Origin: Gammaproteobacteria bacterium
GTDB lineage: Bacteria; Pseudomonadota; Gammaproteobacteria; GRL18
Assembly: GCA_027012135.1 (NCBI GenBank)
Contig: JALUZF010000074.1
Coordinates: 1-35,346, forward strand
DNA length: 35,346 nt
Direction: 5' to 3'
Part shown: positions 7,328 through 31,680 of the stretch, piece after piece
How positions within the stretch are numbered: the stretch's first letter is position 1
Layout: each line of letters opens with the position of its first letter
Notes under the pieces: model-generated
Seen by the model: the letters and a program-made list of their open reading frames with translations, nothing else
Database searches by the model: none
What the model was told of the DNA's origin: nothing
Position numbers and translations under genes: made by a program

Positions 7328-8683
7328 ATGAGTGATAAAAAGAATGCCAATGGCTGGTCACGTCGTGACATTATGAAAGCAGCGGGTGCTTTTACAGCAG
7401 CCGGTGCCATGCCGATGTTTTTCACCCGGGGTGCCTGGGCATCCAAAACCTTTGTTAATGATCCAGGTAATTCCAAAACCGTTAAATTAGGTTTTAACGT
7501 ACCCCAGACTGGTGCTTATGCCGATGAAGGGGCAGATGAACTGCGTGCCTTTAAACTGGCTGTTAAACACCTCAATGGTGAAGGCGACGGCGGCATGATA
7601 CAGACCATGAAGCCAATGAGCCTGAAAGGCAATGGTATTCTGGGTAAAAAAGTTGAGTATGTAACCGGTGATACTCAGACCAAGTCCGATGCGGCCCGTG
7701 CTTCTGCCAAGCGTATGATTGAAAAAGACGGTGTTATTATGTTCTCCGGCGGTTCCTCTTCCGGTGTAGCCATTGCACAGCAGTCTTTAGCTCAGGATAT
7801 GGGTGTGGTCTTTATGTGCGGTCTGACTCATTCCAATGACACCACCGGTAAGGACAAGCGCCGTTACGGTTTCCGTCATTTCTTTAATGCCAAGATGTCC
7901 GGTCTGGCTTTAGGTCCGGTACTGAAAAAAGAAATGGGTACTGACCGTCGTGCCTATCACCTGACTGCAGACTATACCTGGGGCTGGACTCAGGAAGAAT
8001 CCATTAAGGAAACCACCGAAGGTCTGGGCTGGAAAACCGTTAAAACGGTTCGTACCCCTCTGGGTGCCGGTGACTTCTCACAATATATTACACCGGTTCT
8101 GAACTCCGGTGCTGATGTGCTGATCCTGAACCACTATGGTAAGGACATGATCAACTCTCTGACCCAGGCGGTACAGTTTGGTCTGCGTGACAAGATGGTT
8201 AACGGTAAGCGGTTTGAAATTATTGTTCCTCTGTACTCCCGTCTGATGGCACAGGGTGCCGGTAAAAATATTAAGGGTATTTTAGGTACCACTAACTGGA
8301 ACTGGGCATTAAAAGACGAAGGTTCCCAGGCTTTTGTTAAGTCCTTTGGTAATGAGTACGGCTTCCCGCCATCCCAGGCTGCACATACCTGTTATGTACA
8401 GACGATGCTGTATGCTAATGCCTGTGAAATGGCCGGTACTTTCTACCCGCCAGAAGTTATCAAGCAGCTGGAAGGCTTTAACTTTGACGGTATGGGCAAC
8501 GGTCCAACTGAATACCGTGCAGCGGATCACCAGTGCTTTAAAGACGTACTGGTTATGCGCGGTAATGAGCATCCAACCAGCCAGTTTGATCTGCTGGAAA
8601 TTGTTCAGGTGGTGCCTCGTGCCCAGGTTGAATATCCTGCCGATATCTTTGGCGGTGAGTTAGGTCCTTACGAAAAATCCTGA
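7328..8683 (+). CDS. livK: Branched-chain amino acid-type ABC transporter substrate-binding protein (Tat signal)
   Basis: The protein is 451 aa, in the periplasmic-binding-protein type I (Peripla_BP_6) family. A twin-arginine signal is visible as SRRDIMKAAG (11-20), with a hydrophobic stretch and likely cleavage after GAWA (about residue 38). Family features include KLGFNVPQTGAYADEG at the mature N terminus, VIMFSGGSSSGVAIA, and the ligand-pocket region FGLRDKMV. It is longer than classical LivK (about 370 aa) and uses Tat, so the ligand may not be a branched-chain amino acid; amides, urea or other small organics are possible. GAGGA stands 7 bases before the ATG. It is the first gene of the livK-H-M-G-F operon and lies behind the sigma-54 promoter at 7121. 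The gene symbol indicates family only. Confidence 0.88.
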   Translation: MSDKKNANGWSRRDIMKAAGAFTAAGAMPMFFTRGAWASKTFVNDPGNSKTVKLGFNVPQTGAYADEGADELRAFKLAVKHLNGEGDGGMIQTMKPMSLKGNGILGKKVEYVTGDTQTKSDAARASAKRMIEKDGVIMFSGGSSSGVAIAQQSLAQDMGVVFMCGLTHSNDTTGKDKRRYGFRHFFNAKMSGLALGPVLKKEMGTDRRAYHLTADYTWGWTQEESIKETTEGLGWKTVKTVRTPLGAGDFSQYITPVLNSGADVLILNHYGKDMINSLTQAVQFGLRDKMVNGKRFEIIVPLYSRLMAQGAGKNIKGILGTTNWNWALKDEGSQAFVKSFGNEYGFPPSQAAHTCYVQTMLYANACEMAGTFYPPEVIKQLEGFNFDGMGNGPTEYRAADHQCFKDVLVMRGNEHPTSQFDLLEIVQVVPRAQVEYPADIFGGELGPYEKS

Positions 8684-23101: not shown

Positions 23102-23509
23102 ATGGTCAAAGCTCTGACAATTGGTTATCTGGCCAGAATGGCCGGAGTCAATATTGAGACGGTACGTTATTATCAGCGTACCGGTTTAATAGATGAGCCG
23201 CCTAAACCCAGCTCTGGTTATCGTATTTATCCTCTTCAGACTGTAGATCGTATTAAATTTATTAAACGAGCACAGGGATTAGGCTTCAGCCTGAAAGAAA
23301 TTAATGAGTTGCTTGAGCTGGGGGATGGACACTGTGCAGATGTTCGGGTAAAAGCTGAAGAAAAACGTGCTCATATCGAACAGCAGATTATTGAACTGAC
23401 AAAATTACGCAATACCCTCGATACTCTAATCAACAGCTGTCAAAACACTGATGACTCAGTACACTGTCCCATTGTTGAAACTCTGGCAGGACAGGGTACT
23501 GAATTATAA
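23102..23509 (+). CDS. merR: MerR-family metal-responsive regulator (MerR-like)
   Basis: The protein is 135 aa. The winged helix is at the N terminus (LTIGYLARMAGVNIETVRYYQRTGLI), followed by the MerR-specific PPKPSSGYRIY, the long dimer helix, and Cys78, Cys113 and Cys122. Spacings of 35 and 9 match the three Hg(II)-binding cysteines of MerR (82, 117, 126), shifted by four. ZntR/PbrR-type metal specificity remains possible because they share related cysteine positions. A strong AGGAGG precedes the ATG. No mer resistance genes are in the window, and the promoter at 22914 suggests autoregulation. Confidence 0.85.
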   Translation: MVKALTIGYLARMAGVNIETVRYYQRTGLIDEPPKPSSGYRIYPLQTVDRIKFIKRAQGLGFSLKEINELLELGDGHCADVRVKAEEKRAHIEQQIIELTKLRNTLDTLINSCQNTDDSVHCPIVETLAGQGTEL

Positions 23510-23518
23510 ATCAGCGGC

Positions 23519-24178
23519 TCATTCTTCCACCGGCAGGCCGGAAGCCTTCCATTCGGGAAAACCGTCCTGCAGACGATGGGCTTTAAAGCCCTTTTCTCTA
23601 AGCCGGGCAACCGCTTCAAAGGCCAGAACACAGTGAGGACCTCGACAATAGGCCACCACTTCCTGTTCTGAGTCCAGCTTATCCAGGTGTTTTTCAAGTT
23701 CGGATAAAGGCACATTAATGGCACCCGGTACATGCCCTGACTGATATTCCTCTGCGGGACGTACATCCAGAACGGTCACCAGATCATTGCGAACCCGGTC
23801 AAGCAGTTCGCTGGCCGGAACAGGCTCAAGGTTGTCCTTAACCGTCAGGAACGCATTGACCAGTTGCTGTACTTCTGCCAGGTGGCGTTCCGCTACATTA
23901 CGCAGTGAATTAAACAAATTAATGACATCGTCACCACTGATACGGTAAAACACTTTCAGACCTTTTTTGGTGCTGACCACCAGGCCTGCCTGACGCAATT
24001 GCTGCAGATGCTGGGAGGTATTGGCAACTGACAGCCCGGAGACTCTGGCCAGTTCATCCACACTGCGCTCACCCTGGGCAATAAATTCGAGCAATTCAAG
24101 GCGGTTGCCATTACTCAATGCTTTACCCACCCGGGCAAACTGAGTAAATAAATCCTGTTTGAAATGAACACTTGACAT
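23519..24178 (-). CDS. ArsR-family repressor fused to a rhodanese domain
   Basis: The protein is 219 aa. Residues about 10-95 form an ArsR winged helix (ALSNGNRLELLEFI, VDELARVSGLSVANTSQHLQ, GLKVFYRI). Residues about 122-215 form a rhodanese domain (VLDVRPAEEYQSGHVPGAIN) with active-site loop CRGPHC, Cys178 and Cys183. The DNA-binding half contains no Cys, so any sulfane or redox sensing would go through the rhodanese half. An in-frame TTG ten codons upstream exists; the ATG at 24178 fits the family better. It is convergent with merR (9-base gap) and divergent from the desaturase-family gene. Confidence 0.9.
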   Translation of the reverse strand: MSSVHFKQDLFTQFARVGKALSNGNRLELLEFIAQGERSVDELARVSGLSVANTSQHLQQLRQAGLVVSTKKGLKVFYRISGDDVINLFNSLRNVAERHLAEVQQLVNAFLTVKDNLEPVPASELLDRVRNDLVTVLDVRPAEEYQSGHVPGAINVPLSELEKHLDKLDSEQEVVAYCRGPHCVLAFEAVARLREKGFKAHRLQDGFPEWKASGLPVEE

Positions 24179-24200
24179 AAAACTGAATACCTTTAAAATA

Positions 24201-24224
24201 GTATTCAATAGATTAATTGAATAC
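24201..24224. promoter_or_regulatory. Palindromic operator, probably for the ArsR-rhodanese repressor
   Basis: GTATTCAAT (24201-24209) and ATTGAATAC (24216-24224) are perfect 9-bp arms with a 6-base centre. A further GAATAC (24185-24190) pairs with the left arm. AT-rich ATTC/GAAT dyads of this kind are typical of ArsR-family operators such as BigR. It sits in the divergent promoter region. Confidence 0.65.
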
Positions 24225-25199: not shown

Positions 25200-25429
25200 G
25201 ATGTTTTCATAAACCCTGTAACTTAGTCTGTCTTGCAGCCGGGCACTCTACTGTGCGCTGATTCCAGCTGAATTTTTAATATTAAATATCAAACATCGTG
25301 GATGTTATTTTATTATTTTACGTATACTCTATTAATACAGGAGTGTGTGAGCATACCCTGAACATGGTTTACCCAGAGGATGCTCCTGCCCTGGCTCATA
25401 CAAGAGGCTAATACGTAGAGATATAACAT

Positions 25430-25972
25430 TTGAATCCGGTTGATATTGACAAACTCACACAGGGAAATAAAAAAGCATGGGATCTTTTTGTTGAACAAAT
25501 TTCACCATTGCTGCTGCATATCATAAAAAAAACACTCCTGCAGTATCACCAGTCTACAGATGATATTCCTGATTTTCTTCAGGATATTTTTATCCATTTT
25601 TATAAAGATAATTTTCATGTACTCAAGTTATATGATCCTCAATATGGTCAGTTCTCGACCTGGTGTGGTGTTATTGCCAGGAATAAAGTGATTGATCGAT
25701 TACGCAAAAAATCAATATCAACTGTTCCACTGGATGATGAACATGAACAGCAAGCCGGGGTGGTGCCGGTTAATCGGACAGAAAAAATCAGAATACCGTT
25801 AGATTTATTATCTAACAGGCAACGCCTGGTGATACGTTTGATTTATGAAAAGGATATGGAGGTCTCAGAGGTTGCTGATATGCTGTCAATCAGTCAGCAA
25901 ACGGTACGCAGCCTGCGTCACAAGGCTTTGAGCAAACTAAGAGATTATTTTAATTTGGCAGAGAAAAAATAA
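25430..25972 (+). CDS. ECF-like RNA polymerase sigma factor
   Basis: The protein is 180 aa. Region 2 (about residues 15-85) has DDIPDFLQDIFIHFYKD and FSTWCGVIARNKVIDRLRKK. Region 4 (about 118-172) has LLSNRQRLVIRLIYEKDMEVSEVADMLSISQQTVRSLRHKALSKLRDYF, read here through RQRLVIRL and VRSLRHKALSKLR. No in-frame ATG lies before region 2, so the start must be the TTG at 25430, with GTAGAG about 9 bases upstream. It is the first gene of an apparent six-gene unit and should recognise its own promoter. Confidence 0.85.
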   Translation: MNPVDIDKLTQGNKKAWDLFVEQISPLLLHIIKKTLLQYHQSTDDIPDFLQDIFIHFYKDNFHVLKLYDPQYGQFSTWCGVIARNKVIDRLRKKSISTVPLDDEHEQQAGVVPVNRTEKIRIPLDLLSNRQRLVIRLIYEKDMEVSEVADMLSISQQTVRSLRHKALSKLRDYFNLAEKK

Positions 25973-26059
25973 CGGCGCAGTAAATATTTTCAAAATTTTT
26001 TAGTTAGCCGGGGATGTTTTATACAGGCAATCCGTAAACTTTAATAAGCGAATAAAAAT

Positions 26060-26581
26060 ATGACAGAACATAAACATAAACAAAATGAGCAGAAACTTCT
26101 GCTGTTATGTAAAAAAGGCTTTTCCTGTGAGCTGGACAGGGAGAATATTGATTTTCCGGTAAATGAAGGAATGCTGGCCCGTTATATTAATAACCAGCTG
26201 GATGAAAGTGAACGAGAAAAAGTTGAAGCAAGATTGGCATGGGATGATGAAGCGCTTGAGACTTTGATAGTGGTCAAAGCCGCACTTCAATGCACTGATT
26301 TAGAGAAACCTGACAAGCAGTCTCTTGATGTCCTGAAAAATATTGTTTCAGAGCAGAACAGGTCAAAAAGTCCAGACTGGCTCAGGACGATTTTTTCGTT
26401 CATTAATAAGCAGAGTCTAAGTTTTGGCCTGGGACTGAGTTCAGCATTTGCCCTTGTTCTGATCATTGGGTTTCAGCTGGGTATGACCACCAGATTAAAT
26501 ACTGAAAAAGTGGATGTACTATTATTTGATGAAATCATAATAGTTAATGCTCCAGAAGAACATAGCAGGAGTCATGTCTGA
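26060..26581 (+). CDS. Putative membrane anti-sigma factor
   Basis: The protein is 173 aa. The cytoplasmic N-terminal part contains MLARYINNQLDESEREKVEARLAWDDEALETL, a helical pattern typical of anti-sigma factors (YINNQLD...EKVEARL). The zinc HxxxCxxC motif is absent. One membrane helix lies near residues 115-140 (LGLSSAFALVLIIGFQLG), followed by a short periplasmic tail. It directly follows the sigma gene and overlaps the next start by one base. Confidence 0.7.
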   Translation: MTEHKHKQNEQKLLLLCKKGFSCELDRENIDFPVNEGMLARYINNQLDESEREKVEARLAWDDEALETLIVVKAALQCTDLEKPDKQSLDVLKNIVSEQNRSKSPDWLRTIFSFINKQSLSFGLGLSSAFALVLIIGFQLGMTTRLNTEKVDVLLFDEIIIVNAPEEHSRSHV

Positions 26582-27030
26582 TGCGCTGGTTAAAATCGGC
26601 TTTATTTATTTCTGTATCACTTAATATCGCATTTATTGTGGGTTTTGTTTATACAGGTAAAAACCTGAATAATTTAACTCAGTCACCTGAAAAAAGACAA
26701 CAGCTTTTACAGCAACGGTTAGAACTTTCCAGAGATCAGAAAGTTTTATTTCAGAAGTTGAAAAAGGATGTTTTTATCCTGACAGATAACTATAAACAAA
26801 AAGATGAGAAATTGCTGGAACACTACTGGCAGTCTTTATTAAATGAAGATAATGACTTAGATCATATCCTTGAGGAGATGTCAGATAACCAGTTACGCTA
26901 TCGTCAAAAAGTCACTGCCGACTTTAAAATATTGATTGCGCAATTACACCCTGAACAAAGAGTAAAAATAGTAAAAATTTTAAAACGAAAGAATATTTTT
27001 TTTAGATTAATAAGACAAAAACCAAAATAG
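26581..27030 (+). CDS. CnrX/Spy-like periplasmic protein (possible signal sensor)
   Basis: The protein is 149 aa. An N-terminal signal anchor (residues 5-25) leads to an all-helical, highly charged periplasmic domain. LELSRDQKVLFQKLKKD, the central helix and QLHPEQRVKIVKIL near the end follow the pattern of the heavy-metal-resistance/Spy/CnrX fold. In CnrYXH-type systems a protein of this kind senses the periplasm and controls an anti-sigma factor. The gene order here (sigma, anti-sigma, CnrX-like) fits that scheme. No Met/His-rich metal site stands out, so the signal may not be metal. Confidence 0.65.
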   Translation: MRWLKSALFISVSLNIAFIVGFVYTGKNLNNLTQSPEKRQQLLQQRLELSRDQKVLFQKLKKDVFILTDNYKQKDEKLLEHYWQSLLNEDNDLDHILEEMSDNQLRYRQKVTADFKILIAQLHPEQRVKIVKILKRKNIFFRLIRQKPK

Positions 27031-27050
27031 ATTGTTATAAGGAGTCTATC

Positions 27051-27683
27051 ATGAAAAACAAAACCATAATTAGTATTATTTCACTATTCAGTTTAAGCAG
27101 TCATCTGGTTCAGGCTGACTGGAAAAATTATGTGGCACAACACCCCGAGCTTGAAGCACAGTACCATAGACAGGTTCCAAATTCCAATAAACAATGGTTC
27201 GAAGATTTAGCTTATTTAAAAAAACATCCTAAAGTAGCTGAACAGCTTATTGATAATGCAGACTATCTTGATGACCATCCTAAGGTTTCCAGAGCAATAT
27301 ATAAAAATAAAGAATGGCTCAATAACAATCCTGCTATTGCAAAAACACTCTATAATAATAAACAATTATTAAATAATCACCCTGAACTTTCTAAAGATGC
27401 CTACTCACATAGAAAATGGTTAGCAACACGTCCTGATGGTCAACTTGGCTCGACCAAACGTGCTGCAGAGAAGCATCAAAAAGCGGCCAAAGCGTTAGGT
27501 AAAGATAGGCTTATTACAGGCAACCGGAGCAATCAATTATTTAAAGATGCATCTAATCACCCGGGAACGACTAAAAAGTTATATAAAAAAGCTGAAATGA
27601 ATCCATACAAAACCAGGAAAATTCATCGCCAGGTTAAGAATCATCCATTAAAGGCAAAAAACAAATACAAAAAACATCGTTAA
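27051..27683 (+). CDS. Secreted basic protein with 17-residue repeats
   Basis: The protein is 210 aa. A Sec signal peptide ends near VQA (residue 22). Four 17-residue units run from residue 59 to 126; their H/N-P starts are at 59, 76, 93 and 110, with a partial RP at 127. The consensus is about HPxVAxxLYxNKxWLNN. The C-terminal third is very basic (Lys/Arg/His) with a looser 14-residue HP/NP spacing (170, 184, 198). It is probably helical and surface- or polyanion-binding, but no function is known. A strong AAGGAG precedes the ATG. It is fourth in the sigma-factor unit. Confidence 0.75.
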   Translation: MKNKTIISIISLFSLSSHLVQADWKNYVAQHPELEAQYHRQVPNSNKQWFEDLAYLKKHPKVAEQLIDNADYLDDHPKVSRAIYKNKEWLNNNPAIAKTLYNNKQLLNNHPELSKDAYSHRKWLATRPDGQLGSTKRAAEKHQKAAKALGKDRLITGNRSNQLFKDASNHPGTTKKLYKKAEMNPYKTRKIHRQVKNHPLKAKNKYKKHR

Positions 27684-27814
27684 CAGATTGGAGAGCCAAG
27701 CTGGTGCATCGGTTTTTGGATGTACCAGGTATGGTCAGAATAAGTGAGTGTTTATGATTATCAAAGCGTTAGCTTATAAAAGAAGATGAAACCTGTAATG
27801 GAAGCTCTGGTTTT

Positions 27815-29215
27815 ATGAAGATTTTCGATACTATTTATTATGGTAAAATAATGACTATCTGTTTTGTTATTGTTTTTACTATAACTGATACATCTGCTTT
27901 AACCCTGTCAGAGTCAAAACATTTACTTTCAAGAACAGGATTCGGTGGTTCACTATCAGAAATTAAACCATTACTGCCACTTAATCGACAGCAAGCCATT
28001 GAACTTCTACTTAATGGCATTCAAACCAGGCCACAGAAATCACCTTCTGATAATATAACTAATATCCCTTCTAATATGGCCAGGTTAAAACAGGCCGGCC
28101 CAGGAGAAAAGAAAAGGTTTCGTATGGCACAGCGCAAGCGTGCTCTTGAGCTACAGGCATGGTGGCTTGATGAAATGCTCCGGACCCATTCCCCTCTGAC
28201 TGAGAAAATGGTGTTATTCTGGCATAACCATTTTGTCTCAGCTATCAGAAAGGTGAAATTCTCCAGCCTGATGTATCGCCAGCAACTTCTTTTTCGTCAA
28301 TATGGGCTAGGGAATTATGGCTCACTGCTTAAGGGAATTATTCGGGATCCTGCTATGATCCTCTATCTGGATGGGCAGAAGAATAAAAAGGATCACCCGA
28401 ATGAAAACTTTGCCCGGGAACTACTGGAACTTTTTACTCTGGGTGAAGGTCATTATACCGAAAAAGATATCAAAGAGGTTGCACGTGCTTTTACCGGCTG
28501 GAGTGTGAATCGAAAAACAGGGAAATTTCAATTCAGGAAGCGTCAGCATGATTGGGGTGAGAAGGTATTTCTTGGAAAAAAAGGTTTTTTAAACGGTGAT
28601 GATATTATTAACATCATTCTTTCAAACTCTGCATCATCTCAATGGATTACAAAAAAATTATGGCTTGAATTTATTTCAGACAAACCTGATCCAGAAAAAA
28701 TCAAACGCTGGGCCAATGAGTTTCAACAGTCGGATTTTGAGATAAAACCTTTACTAAGGCGCATATTAAATAGTGATGATTTCTGGGCGGAAGAAAACAG
28801 AGGGCAAATGATCAAGTCTCCAGTGGAACTTCTGGTCGGTTTGCTGCGTTTTTTTGAGATAAAAAAAATGAATACTCAATTGTTAGCCCAGGCAACAAGG
28901 AGCCTGGGACAGACTCTTTTTAATCCTCCAAATGTTAAAGGATGGGTGGGAGGAATATCCTGGATCACTTCAGCTACTTTAATTAAACGTCAACAATTAG
29001 TCAGTCAGTTTGCTCGTGGGAAAGGGATGAGAAAAGCCAATATTTCTGTGTCAGTAATTGAAGAAGTGCTAAAAGAGCTGCGTCACTTTTCAAAAAATAA
29101 TAAAATCATAGAGTCTCTTTTTCTGGTAATTCCCGCTAATATTGTAACAACTGAATCCGATCTTGAACTGGCTATTGCTGACTGGCTGAATGATCCTGTT
29201 TATCAGTTGAAATAG
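27815..29215 (+). CDS. DUF1800 family secreted protein
   Basis: The protein is 466 aa with a hydrophobic N-terminal signal (about residues 13-28). DUF1800 features are HLLSRTGFGGSLSEI, WWLDEMLRTHSPLTEKMVLFWHNHF (WHNHF), RDPAMILYLDG, HPNENFARELLELFTLGEGHYTEKDI (NENFARELLEL), ARAFTGW, and NPPNVKGWVGG. The family is almost always paired with DUF1501, as here, and the function of the pair is unknown. It lies 7 bases before the DUF1501 gene. An ATG at 27851 is an alternative start. Confidence 0.9.
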   Translation: MKIFDTIYYGKIMTICFVIVFTITDTSALTLSESKHLLSRTGFGGSLSEIKPLLPLNRQQAIELLLNGIQTRPQKSPSDNITNIPSNMARLKQAGPGEKKRFRMAQRKRALELQAWWLDEMLRTHSPLTEKMVLFWHNHFVSAIRKVKFSSLMYRQQLLFRQYGLGNYGSLLKGIIRDPAMILYLDGQKNKKDHPNENFARELLELFTLGEGHYTEKDIKEVARAFTGWSVNRKTGKFQFRKRQHDWGEKVFLGKKGFLNGDDIINIILSNSASSQWITKKLWLEFISDKPDPEKIKRWANEFQQSDFEIKPLLRRILNSDDFWAEENRGQMIKSPVELLVGLLRFFEIKKMNTQLLAQATRSLGQTLFNPPNVKGWVGGISWITSATLIKRQQLVSQFARGKGMRKANISVSVIEEVLKELRHFSKNNKIIESLFLVIPANIVTTESDLELAIADWLNDPVYQLK

Positions 29216-29222
29216 GTGTAAA

Positions 29223-30389
29223 ATGAATCGTCGAAACTTCCTCCAGGCTGCTCTCTCATTGGCTCTTTCACCTTATTCTCGTGCAATGGCTGACACCCCG
29301 GTACAGGAAAAAACCCTTGTCCTGATTGAATTGAATGGAGGTAATGATGGACTGAATACTGTTATACCTTATTCGGATCCCGCTTATTATCAACAACGGC
29401 CGACTCTGGCTGTTTCCAGGGATAAAGTCATTCAGCTCAATGAACAGCTTGGCCTGCACCCTGCAATGAAAGCACTCGTTCCCCTCTGGCAAAAGCAACA
29501 GCTTGCTGTAATTTCAGGCCTTGGCTATGCATCTCCTAACCGATCCCATTTCCGCTCGATTGATATATGGGAAACCGCTTCAGATAGTCATGAATATCTT
29601 GAAGACGGCTGGTATGCCCGAGCAGTTAAAAACAGACAGGATCAGGATAAATGGCTTTCTGATGGGGTTATCCTTAGAAGGGGTGAGGGGCCTTTGCGGG
29701 GTAACTGGATGAAAAATATCAGTATCAGGGATCCGCATCAACTAAGCAGAAGAAAGCATAATCCCCATTATCAAAATCGGAACACAATAAAAAACCCGGC
29801 ACTGGCACATATTCTCGAAACACAAAAAAACGTTGATGTTTTTAGTCGGGCCATTAAAGAACAATTAAAAATATTACCGGCTCCCAGTTCAAATTTTCCA
29901 AAAACAAATATAGGTCAACAATTGCAGGTGGCTGCCAATATTATCCGCAGTGAAATACCGGTACGAGTGATCAAGATCGCTCATGGTGGTTTTGATACTC
30001 ACGCCAATCAGAAATTAAAACATGCTCGTTTATTATTACAATTCTCAGAGGCAATTTCTCATTTTAGTCATGTGATGAATGCTACAGGGTATTGGGATAA
30101 AATCATCATGATGACTTATAGTGAATTTGGTCGAAGAGTGGCAGAAAATGGAAGCAAAGGAACCGACCATGGTACCGCAGCACCTCATTTTGTTATGGGT
30201 GGAAATGTTCGTGGTGGCTTATATGGCCAGCAGCCATCATTAAAGTATTTAGATAATGGGGATTTAATCTATACTACGGATTATCGGCAAATGTATCATA
30301 GTGTCTTAAAAGACGGCCTGGGTTTGTTACAGATACCCTTTTCTCAAAAACAATATCCACCAATAGCGGATCTTTTTCATCAAGGATAA
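29223..30389 (+). CDS. DUF1501 family protein with Tat signal
   Basis: The protein is 388 aa. The Tat motif NRRNFLQ is at residues 2-8, followed by a hydrophobic stretch to about AMA. The family core is LVLIELNGGNDGLNTVIPY, HPAMKALVPLW, LGYASPNRSHFRSIDIWETAS, AHGGFDTHANQ, MTYSEFGRRVAENGSKGTDHGT and GGLYG. The fold is alkaline-phosphatase/sulfatase-like. Tat export hints at folding or metal loading before export. It is the last gene of the unit, and a hairpin follows 57 bases after the stop. Confidence 0.9.
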   Translation: MNRRNFLQAALSLALSPYSRAMADTPVQEKTLVLIELNGGNDGLNTVIPYSDPAYYQQRPTLAVSRDKVIQLNEQLGLHPAMKALVPLWQKQQLAVISGLGYASPNRSHFRSIDIWETASDSHEYLEDGWYARAVKNRQDQDKWLSDGVILRRGEGPLRGNWMKNISIRDPHQLSRRKHNPHYQNRNTIKNPALAHILETQKNVDVFSRAIKEQLKILPAPSSNFPKTNIGQQLQVAANIIRSEIPVRVIKIAHGGFDTHANQKLKHARLLLQFSEAISHFSHVMNATGYWDKIIMMTYSEFGRRVAENGSKGTDHGTAAPHFVMGGNVRGGLYGQQPSLKYLDNGDLIYTTDYRQMYHSVLKDGLGLLQIPFSQKQYPPIADLFHQG

Positions 30390-30496: not shown

Positions 30497-30835
30497 TTAT
30501 TGCAGCTGGTATTCACCCGCAGTTTCGTCCCATTTAAAGGTATTGTCTGAGCTTACTCCGGCTGCAGGAGGATTGCTATCCAGTTCCTGAAGCATGCCGG
30601 CCACACTGTTCTGGGCGGTCAGGTTAAAATCGGCTGGATTAACATATTCTTCATATTCCACACTCCAGACTTCCTTGCCGGTATCAGCAATAGTATTAAT
30701 AGGCTGTGGCTGAAGGCTGGTCTCCTGGATTGGGAAGACATCACCGATGCCCGGGTCGCCATGTACAGCATCAGCGTTTGCATTAATAGCAAAAGCAGTG
30801 GTTGCAGCAAAAATTAATGTAGTTAAAGTTTTCAT
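30497..30835 (-). CDS. Small secreted protein, tandem paralogue A
   Basis: The protein is 112 aa. A Sec signal (MKTLTTLIFAATTAFAINANA) leads to a mature acidic chain of about 91 residues. It is closely similar along its whole length to the gene at 31096, sharing VWSVEYEEYVNPADFNLT and the final TAGEYQLQ. I recognise no family. AGAGGA precedes the ATG. It has its own upstream region related to that of paralogue B. Confidence 0.75.
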   Translation of the reverse strand: MKTLTTLIFAATTAFAINANADAVHGDPGIGDVFPIQETSLQPQPINTIADTGKEVWSVEYEEYVNPADFNLTAQNSVAGMLQELDSNPPAAGVSSDNTFKWDETAGEYQLQ

Positions 30836-31020
30836 GGTTGTTTCCTCTTAGTCTGTAATAGATGTTTTAACTTTTTAAAACGTTTTCTGTTTTGTTGAGT
30901 TAACTATACAACAACCACCCTTGCATAATCCTTACATAAGTATTAAATGTTTGTAACGTTTTTATCACGGTAGAGGTTTAAAGTTGAATCCTCGAAATTA
31001 AAAACAGTCAGTAGAAATAA

Positions 31021-31095: not shown

Positions 31096-31443
31096 TTATT
31101 GCAGTTGATATTCACCGGCAGTGGTATCCCATTTAAAGGTATCACCTGCCTGTGTTCTACCTGCAGCAGGAGGATTGTTTTCCAGTTCCTGAATCAGGCT
31201 GGCAACACTGTTCTGAGTAGTCAGGTTGAAATCAGCTGGATTAACGTATTCTTCATATTCCACACTCCAGACCTGTTTGCCGGTGTCAGCAACAGTATTC
31301 AGAGCCTGTGGCTGAATGCTGGTTTCCTGGATTGGAAAAACATCGTTAATGGCAGGGTCACCGTGCAGGGCATCAGTTCCGGCATTAGCATTAACAGCAA
31401 AAGCAGCAGTAGCAGCAAAAATCAAAGTAGATAATGTTTTCAT
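31096..31443 (-). CDS. Small secreted protein, tandem paralogue B
   Basis: The protein is 115 aa with a Sec signal (MKTLSTLIFAATAAFAVNANA) and an acidic mature part. It contains HGDPAINDVFPIQETS, VWSVEYEEYVNPADFNLT and a C-terminal FKWDTTAGEYQLQ. It differs from paralogue A mainly in conservative replacements and a few inserted residues. AAAGGA precedes the ATG. It has its own terminator at 31021. Function unknown. Confidence 0.75.
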   Translation of the reverse strand: MKTLSTLIFAATAAFAVNANAGTDALHGDPAINDVFPIQETSIQPQALNTVADTGKQVWSVEYEEYVNPADFNLTTQNSVASLIQELENNPPAAGRTQAGDTFKWDTTAGEYQLQ

Positions 31444-31680
31444 GATAGTATCCTTTTCGTTAGTATCTGGTAAGTTGTTCTGTAAACTTATTGTTTTGTT
31501 TTAGTTTCGTTTTCTGTTTTGTTGAGATAACTATACAACAGCCACCCTTTCACCATCCTTACATGAGAATTAAACATTTGTAATGTTACTGTTATATTAC
31601 TCTTATGTTTTATGGGGTTTACCCAAAAAAGAAGATAACAATTTATGTTAGAATAGCTAAAAACTTTACGGGGAAATACT

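Follow-up and report, generated by a model that had tools for sequence, protein, structure and literature searches.

Here we describe a predicted operon of six genes in the genome of a gammaproteobacterium (GTDB lineage GRL18; assembly GCA_027012135.1), in which an extracytoplasmic function (ECF) sigma factor, an anti-sigma-like protein and a CnrX/CpxP-like sensor are encoded upstream of an exported 17-residue-repeat protein and of a DUF1800-DUF1501 gene pair. The five-gene core of this arrangement, lacking the repeat protein, recurs in several proteobacterial lineages, and we consider it likely that the locus is an envelope-responsive ECF sigma operon with the exported DUF pair as its main output. 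The window analyzed is one entire contig (JALUZF010000074.1, 35,346 nucleotides; G000:C74), and the six genes occupy positions 25430-30389 on the forward strand with intergenic gaps of 87, -1, 20, 131 and 7 bp (Table 1). An earlier sequence-only reading had proposed this six-gene arrangement, and it was borne out in gene content, coordinates and strand, as well as by its conservation in a second genome of the same genus.

Table 1. Features of the sigma-linked DUF1800-DUF1501 locus (positions in the window)
Feature	Position	Strand	Evidence
Candidate ECF promoter GGATGTT-N14-CGTA, 5' of sigma gene	25300..25324	+	kept in G004; rare exact matches in both genomes
ECF sigma factor, 180 aa, TTG start	25430..25972	+	TIGR02937, Sigma70_r2, Sigma70_r4
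Second candidate promoter copy, 5' of anti-sigma gene	26012..26036	+	same motif
Anti-sigma-like protein, 173 aa; cytoplasmic N-terminal part, one predicted transmembrane segment, short periplasmic tail	26060..26581	+	transmembrane prediction, profile-profile match
Membrane-anchored periplasmic CnrX/CpxP-like (Metal_resist/LTXXQ superfamily) sensor, 149 aa	26581..27030	+	profile matches
Exported 17-aa helical repeat protein, 210 aa; lineage-specific insertion	27051..27683	+	repeat, helical model, homologue distribution
DUF1800 protein, 466 aa, predicted exported	27815..29215	+	PF08811, 369.7 bits
DUF1501 protein, 388 aa, Tat-type signal	29223..30389	+	PF07394, 113.6 bits; invariant residues

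The closest gammaproteobacterial relatives of the DUF1800 protein, the top ones being 36-48% identical to it, belong to free-standing pairs with DUF1501, and the neighborhoods of the 14 closest relatives contain no sigma factor, which pointed first to a chance linkage. This view was reversed by a survey of 398 Pseudomonadota genomes, 105 of which encode a DUF1800 protein, in keeping with the earlier description of the family as widespread, followed by inspection of individual loci. Among the first 60 loci, genes for an ECF sigma factor, a CnrX-like protein, DUF1800 and DUF1501 lie on one strand in five (L124, L127, L131, L137 and L140). A further 20 loci, partly picked from one enriched family, yielded three more modules, and plasmid records yielded five more (Rhizobium lusitanum, R. 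tropici CIAT 899, Burkholderia cenocepacia, Caballeronia sp. and Ensifer adhaerens); the plasmid loci had been selected for the similarity of their DUF1800, and another five selected in this way had no sigma link. Four further annotated plasmid loci had no sigma factor. On the E. adhaerens plasmid pC the regulators are adjacent and convergent to the DUF pair, and are annotated by NCBI as a sigma factor, a hypothetical protein and a "periplasmic heavy metal sensor". Both an ECF and a CnrX-like gene were found at 15 of 130 DUF-pair loci. The survey for adjacent sigma factors that had been suggested as a check supported the proposed linkage, with different ECF and DUF1800 subfamilies represented. 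ECF genes near DUF1800 in L108, L121 and L122 were rejected as module members, being on the opposite strand and accompanied by no CnrX-like gene; that of L108 (7692-8574) belongs to a different pair of an ECF and a small membrane protein, divergent from DUF1800-DUF1501, which is perhaps a third linkage type.

We distinguish class-A modules, which have an ECF related to that of the window in another class of the Pseudomonadota, from class-B modules, whose ECF and anti-sigma proteins belong to a different family. The window ECF is 35-42% identical to the class-A module ECFs (39% over 174 aa to that of L140, e-value = 3e-47, with which it groups with strong support) and 21-30% identical to those of class B. 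The L140-type ECF is present in 16 of 23 genomes related to that of L140, and the order ECF, anti-sigma, CnrX-like, DUF1800, DUF1501 holds at all 15 class-A loci with a readable downstream stretch. Class-A loci span two families (genus g399 and one other family); one locus ends at a contig edge inside DUF1800, and the sensor and DUF1800 genes lie close together, being about 10 bp apart in L140, for example. Class-B modules occur in Rhizobiales and Burkholderiales, and combine an anti-sigma family with the pattern MTPERF..AYG..RRWP..ER with sensors of the Metal_resist family.

In a tree of 129 DUF1800 sequences the sigma linkage needs five changes, at least three of which are forced by supported branches, as against about 14 for shuffled labels. 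In a closer tree the DUF1800 proteins of the window and of the L140 type are not sisters (approximately unbiased test, p = 0.039, marginal) while their ECFs group together; therefore, one type of ECF module has apparently become associated with distinct DUF pairs. Such independent assembly argues more strongly for a functional link than anything else here, albeit indirectly.

The sigma factor itself is readily recognized by Pfam and NCBIfam models (TIGR02937, 84 bits against a cut-off of 42.9; Sigma70_r2, 32.7 against 24; Sigma70_r4, 53.2 against 24.1), and the products of the next three genes gave no match above cut-off in these databases. The second gene, starting 87 bp after the sigma gene, codes for a protein with a single predicted transmembrane segment at about residues 120-138, the topology of transmembrane anti-sigma factors. 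Its NCBIfam antisigma match is weak (e-value = 0.047) and it has no Pfam match; in profile-profile comparison it is related to the genes in the same slot of class-A modules (e-value = 1.2e-4), two of 11 of which touch zf-HC2. The sensor has an N-terminal transmembrane segment at residues 7-25 and taken alone finds no Pfam family (LTXXQ e-value = 0.78; Metal_resist, none). With the window protein left out, a profile built solely from alpha- and betaproteobacterial module sensors recovered it with an e-value of 1.7e-8, and profile-profile comparisons related it to ten module sensors of other lineages (e-value = 3.6e-6) and to the class-A sensors (e-value = 1.8e-10), nine of nine of which match Metal_resist. 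The best PDB match of a profile of all module sensors is CpxP (e-value = 0.0045). The AlphaFold model is all-helical and of low confidence (predicted local distance difference test, pLDDT, 47); its top structural neighbors include CpxP, STV, CnrX and Spy, none of them significant. When the phylum was searched with the sensor profile, the nine best matches scored 179-224 bits and the next 99, and eight of the nine adjoin a DUF1800 gene, an adjacency that is partly circular because these matches or their relatives built the profile. A CnrX profile made from two close rows and run over the class gave weak matches, and none of those inspected adjoined a sigma factor or a DUF pair.

The DUF1800 protein (369.7 bits against a gathering cut-off of 26.1) is the sole copy in its genome, and a PDB sequence search with it returned no match. 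The DUF1501 protein (113.6 bits against 27) begins with the twin-arginine (Tat) N terminus MNRRNFLQ. Across 13 diverse members of this family we found invariant residues, namely RR near the start, D42, S108-H109, D258-T-H260, E301 and D315-H316-G; a PDB sequence search brought up alkaline phosphatases below threshold (e-value = 0.55) and chance-like matches to ORC3. The invariant aspartates and histidines would fit a Tat-exported metal hydrolase of the alkaline-phosphatase type, and the pair is most likely made up of an enzyme and its partner, with a substrate in the envelope or at the surface. In Dickeya, Pectobacterium, Brenneria and others, the same DUF1800-DUF1501 pair, likewise with a Tat-type DUF1501, is linked to a chitin synthase (PMC5122149); these loci differ in that linkage, and the part of the paper dealing with them mentions no sigma factor. 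None of the papers on DUF1800 that our literature search found links it to a sigma factor; the classification of ECFs by Casas-Pastor et al. (2021) may already list such a context. On two Azospirillum plasmids (L268 and L269) the pair directly follows SRPBCC and sialidase-family genes, with glycosyltransferases further upstream in L268.

The repeat protein has a signal-like N terminus and an exact 17-residue repeat in the register 51, 68, 85, 102 and 119. It is modeled as helical, with a pLDDT of 68 overall and of 81-93 per block over residues 21-120, and a fold search yielded mostly helical-repeat proteins, none significant. A match to MTB_hemophore fell below the cut-off (22.8 against 32 bits). 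Scanning the genome contigs recovered as homologues only that of the congener G004 and a stand-alone one in G090 (40% identical), which has no sigma or DUF gene in its vicinity; plasmids had none. The repeat gene lies between sensor and DUF1800 in this genus only and is absent from the five-gene core elsewhere, and here the earlier reading needs changing: it is an accessory, local insertion outside the core. The class-B locus L137 has a different small exported protein in this slot (7913-8194; Mesorhizobium-like, a name inferred from group f219). This protein and those of the orthologous stretches L131 and L172-L174 share GCGxGWHPNxWGRC and a tail rich in histidine and tryptophan, and the same loci have an EF-hand-like reading frame upstream of the ECF.

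Of the five congeners examined one, G004, has the operon. Its genome is an independent assembly, in which the operon is split over two contigs (C70 and C235), with identical gene order and 85-92% protein identity, and hence the operon is not an assembly artefact; in the other four genomes neither DUF1800, nor the repeat protein, nor such an ECF was found. The GC content of the operon is 38%, as against 45-47% in its flanks, and this AT-rich composition together with the patchy distribution fits horizontal acquisition. In G004 the repeat gene and DUF1800 are separated by an additional open reading frame of 135 aa with a cyclic-nucleotide-monophosphate-binding domain (L014, 2906-3313), and the stretch 5' of DUF1800 is similar to the terminal part of the repeat gene.

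A bipartite site, GGATGTT-N14-CGTA, is found 5' of both the sigma and the anti-sigma genes and is kept in G004. Exact matches number three in the window genome, two of them at the operon, and two in G004, both at the operon; because the motif was derived from these same sites, nothing but this rarity and conservation counts as independent support for it. It is a candidate autoregulatory promoter. The third copy (G000:C35:40505-40529, reverse strand) appears to lie in or near the start of a 529-aa open reading frame, was not found in G004 and is probably due to chance.

Taken together, these observations suggest a mechanism in which the one-segment anti-sigma protein would keep the sigma factor at the membrane, and the membrane-anchored CnrX/CpxP-like protein would read the state of the periplasm and control the anti-sigma factor. 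Once released, the sigma factor may transcribe its own operon from the GGATGTT-N14-CGTA sites, with read-through into the genes for the exported DUF1800 and Tat-exported DUF1501 proteins, the best apparent candidates for its main output; between sensor and DUF1800, this genus would have gained an exported helical-repeat protein in addition.

Several points weigh against this interpretation. The candidate promoter is absent upstream of DUF1800 itself, and 131 bp separate it from the repeat gene (in G004, with its extra reading frame, about 870 bp); therefore the DUF pair could be transcribed separately from the sigma operon. The motif was picked after the sites had been seen, and no match of its type was seen upstream of class-A ECFs elsewhere. 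Furthermore, about 115 of the 130 surveyed DUF1800-DUF1501 pairs are not sigma-linked, and a sixteenth class-A ECF locus (L267, of G788) has the sensor with no adjacent DUF pair. In L256 and L266 the conservation extends to flanking genes (photolyase, transporter), and part of what is conserved in class A is therefore general synteny; repeated loss could explain part of the tree pattern. As most pairs lack a sigma link, we regard the sigma module as one probable control route for the DUF pair and not as its defining partner.

One alternative is a linkage by chance, with a DUF pair that moved beside an unrelated sigma operon in this genus and has no regulatory tie to it. The operon's patchiness and AT-rich composition, and the varied contexts of the free-standing pairs that are its closest DUF1800 relatives (L058, L059, L061-L068), speak for such a move. 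However, it would have to have been repeated at least three times, given that the five-gene set is found with either of two ECF families and with several subfamilies of DUF1800; this recurrence gives the earlier reading better support than the single locus could, and makes chance improbable. A different possibility is that the DUF proteins belong to the signal, by interacting with the sensor or making its ligand, in a self-contained sensing loop with targets elsewhere. All products other than the sigma factor are indeed predicted to be exported or membrane-bound, and among the periplasmic parts it is the sensor and the DUF pair that all modules share. Yet sensor-less, free-standing pairs are the majority, and the pair must therefore have a function of its own, which renders this alternative very unlikely.

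We attach equally little weight to metal sensing of the CnrYXH type, in which Ni/Co or a different metal would be bound by the CnrX-like protein, with metal resistance as the output that the DUF pair would provide. The Metal_resist matches of class-A and class-B sensors and the NCBI name of one of them speak for it. Against this, several module sensors have neither histidine nor cysteine (those of L131, L173, L194 and L199 have no histidine at all), and in G004 two of the three histidines of the window sensor are kept and H123 is not; the module is therefore not characterized by a metal site of the CnrX type. Moreover, the low-confidence sensor model resembles CpxP, Spy and CnrX alike, and none of them significantly. 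No efflux pump is encoded in the operon or was seen in the related modules, as the sequence-only reading had said of this locus. Its label "CnrX-like" thus stands for topology, fold and remote homology, and fails for metal ligands, which are not conserved, and for gene order; the metal analogy should be dropped. Returning to an envelope-responsive operon, a more specific version of it is possible but tentative: the DUF pair might be an effector of envelope repair or remodeling, consisting of a Tat-exported metal-dependent hydrolase and its partner, that came under a dedicated ECF module independently in a number of proteobacterial lineages, with a CnrX-fold sensor reading envelope damage instead of metals, and the window operon would be its class-A form with a helical-repeat protein added.

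In the neighborhood of the operon, a small exported protein (MKTL(T/S)TLIFAA...; no Pfam match) is encoded as a tandem duplicate on the reverse strand (30497-30835 and 31096-31443), with upstream regions that are 88% identical (30881-30960 and 31508-31587); the pair is also found beside DUF1501 in G004 (L015). Further upstream in the window, a fusion of an ArsR-type helix-turn-helix and a rhodanese domain (23519-24208, reverse strand) adjoins a MerR regulator (23102-23509).

Among known systems, Cupriavidus metallidurans CnrH-CnrY-CnrX, with the gene order cnrYXHCBAT and known metal ligands, likewise combines in one operon an ECF sigma factor, a one-segment anti-sigma factor and a membrane-anchored, helical periplasmic sensor. 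In contrast, the order here is sigma, anti-sigma, sensor, genes for a resistance-nodulation-division (RND) efflux system and conserved metal ligands are lacking, and the anti-sigma protein is not recognizable as CnrY. CpxP and Spy of the LTXXQ family, the best if sub-significant fold neighbors of the sensor, are soluble and part of the Cpx and Bae two-component responses, whereas the sensor described here is membrane-anchored and encoded next to an anti-sigma gene. A precedent is offered by the tricistronic, self-activated rpoE8 operon of Azospirillum brasilense Sp7, which likewise encodes an ECF, a hypothetical protein and a "periplasmic heavy metal sensor" (PMC12826043); that paper names no DUF1800 or DUF1501 genes within the operon.

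Annotations as "periplasmic heavy metal sensor" beside ECF genes can thus be wrong about metals. For DUF1800 and DUF1501, both uncharacterized, a dedicated and repeatedly assembled sigma module would provide an inducible switch and a likely compartment of action, and Rhizobium tropici CIAT 899 and Ensifer adhaerens are candidate strains in which the pair may be tested through the module.

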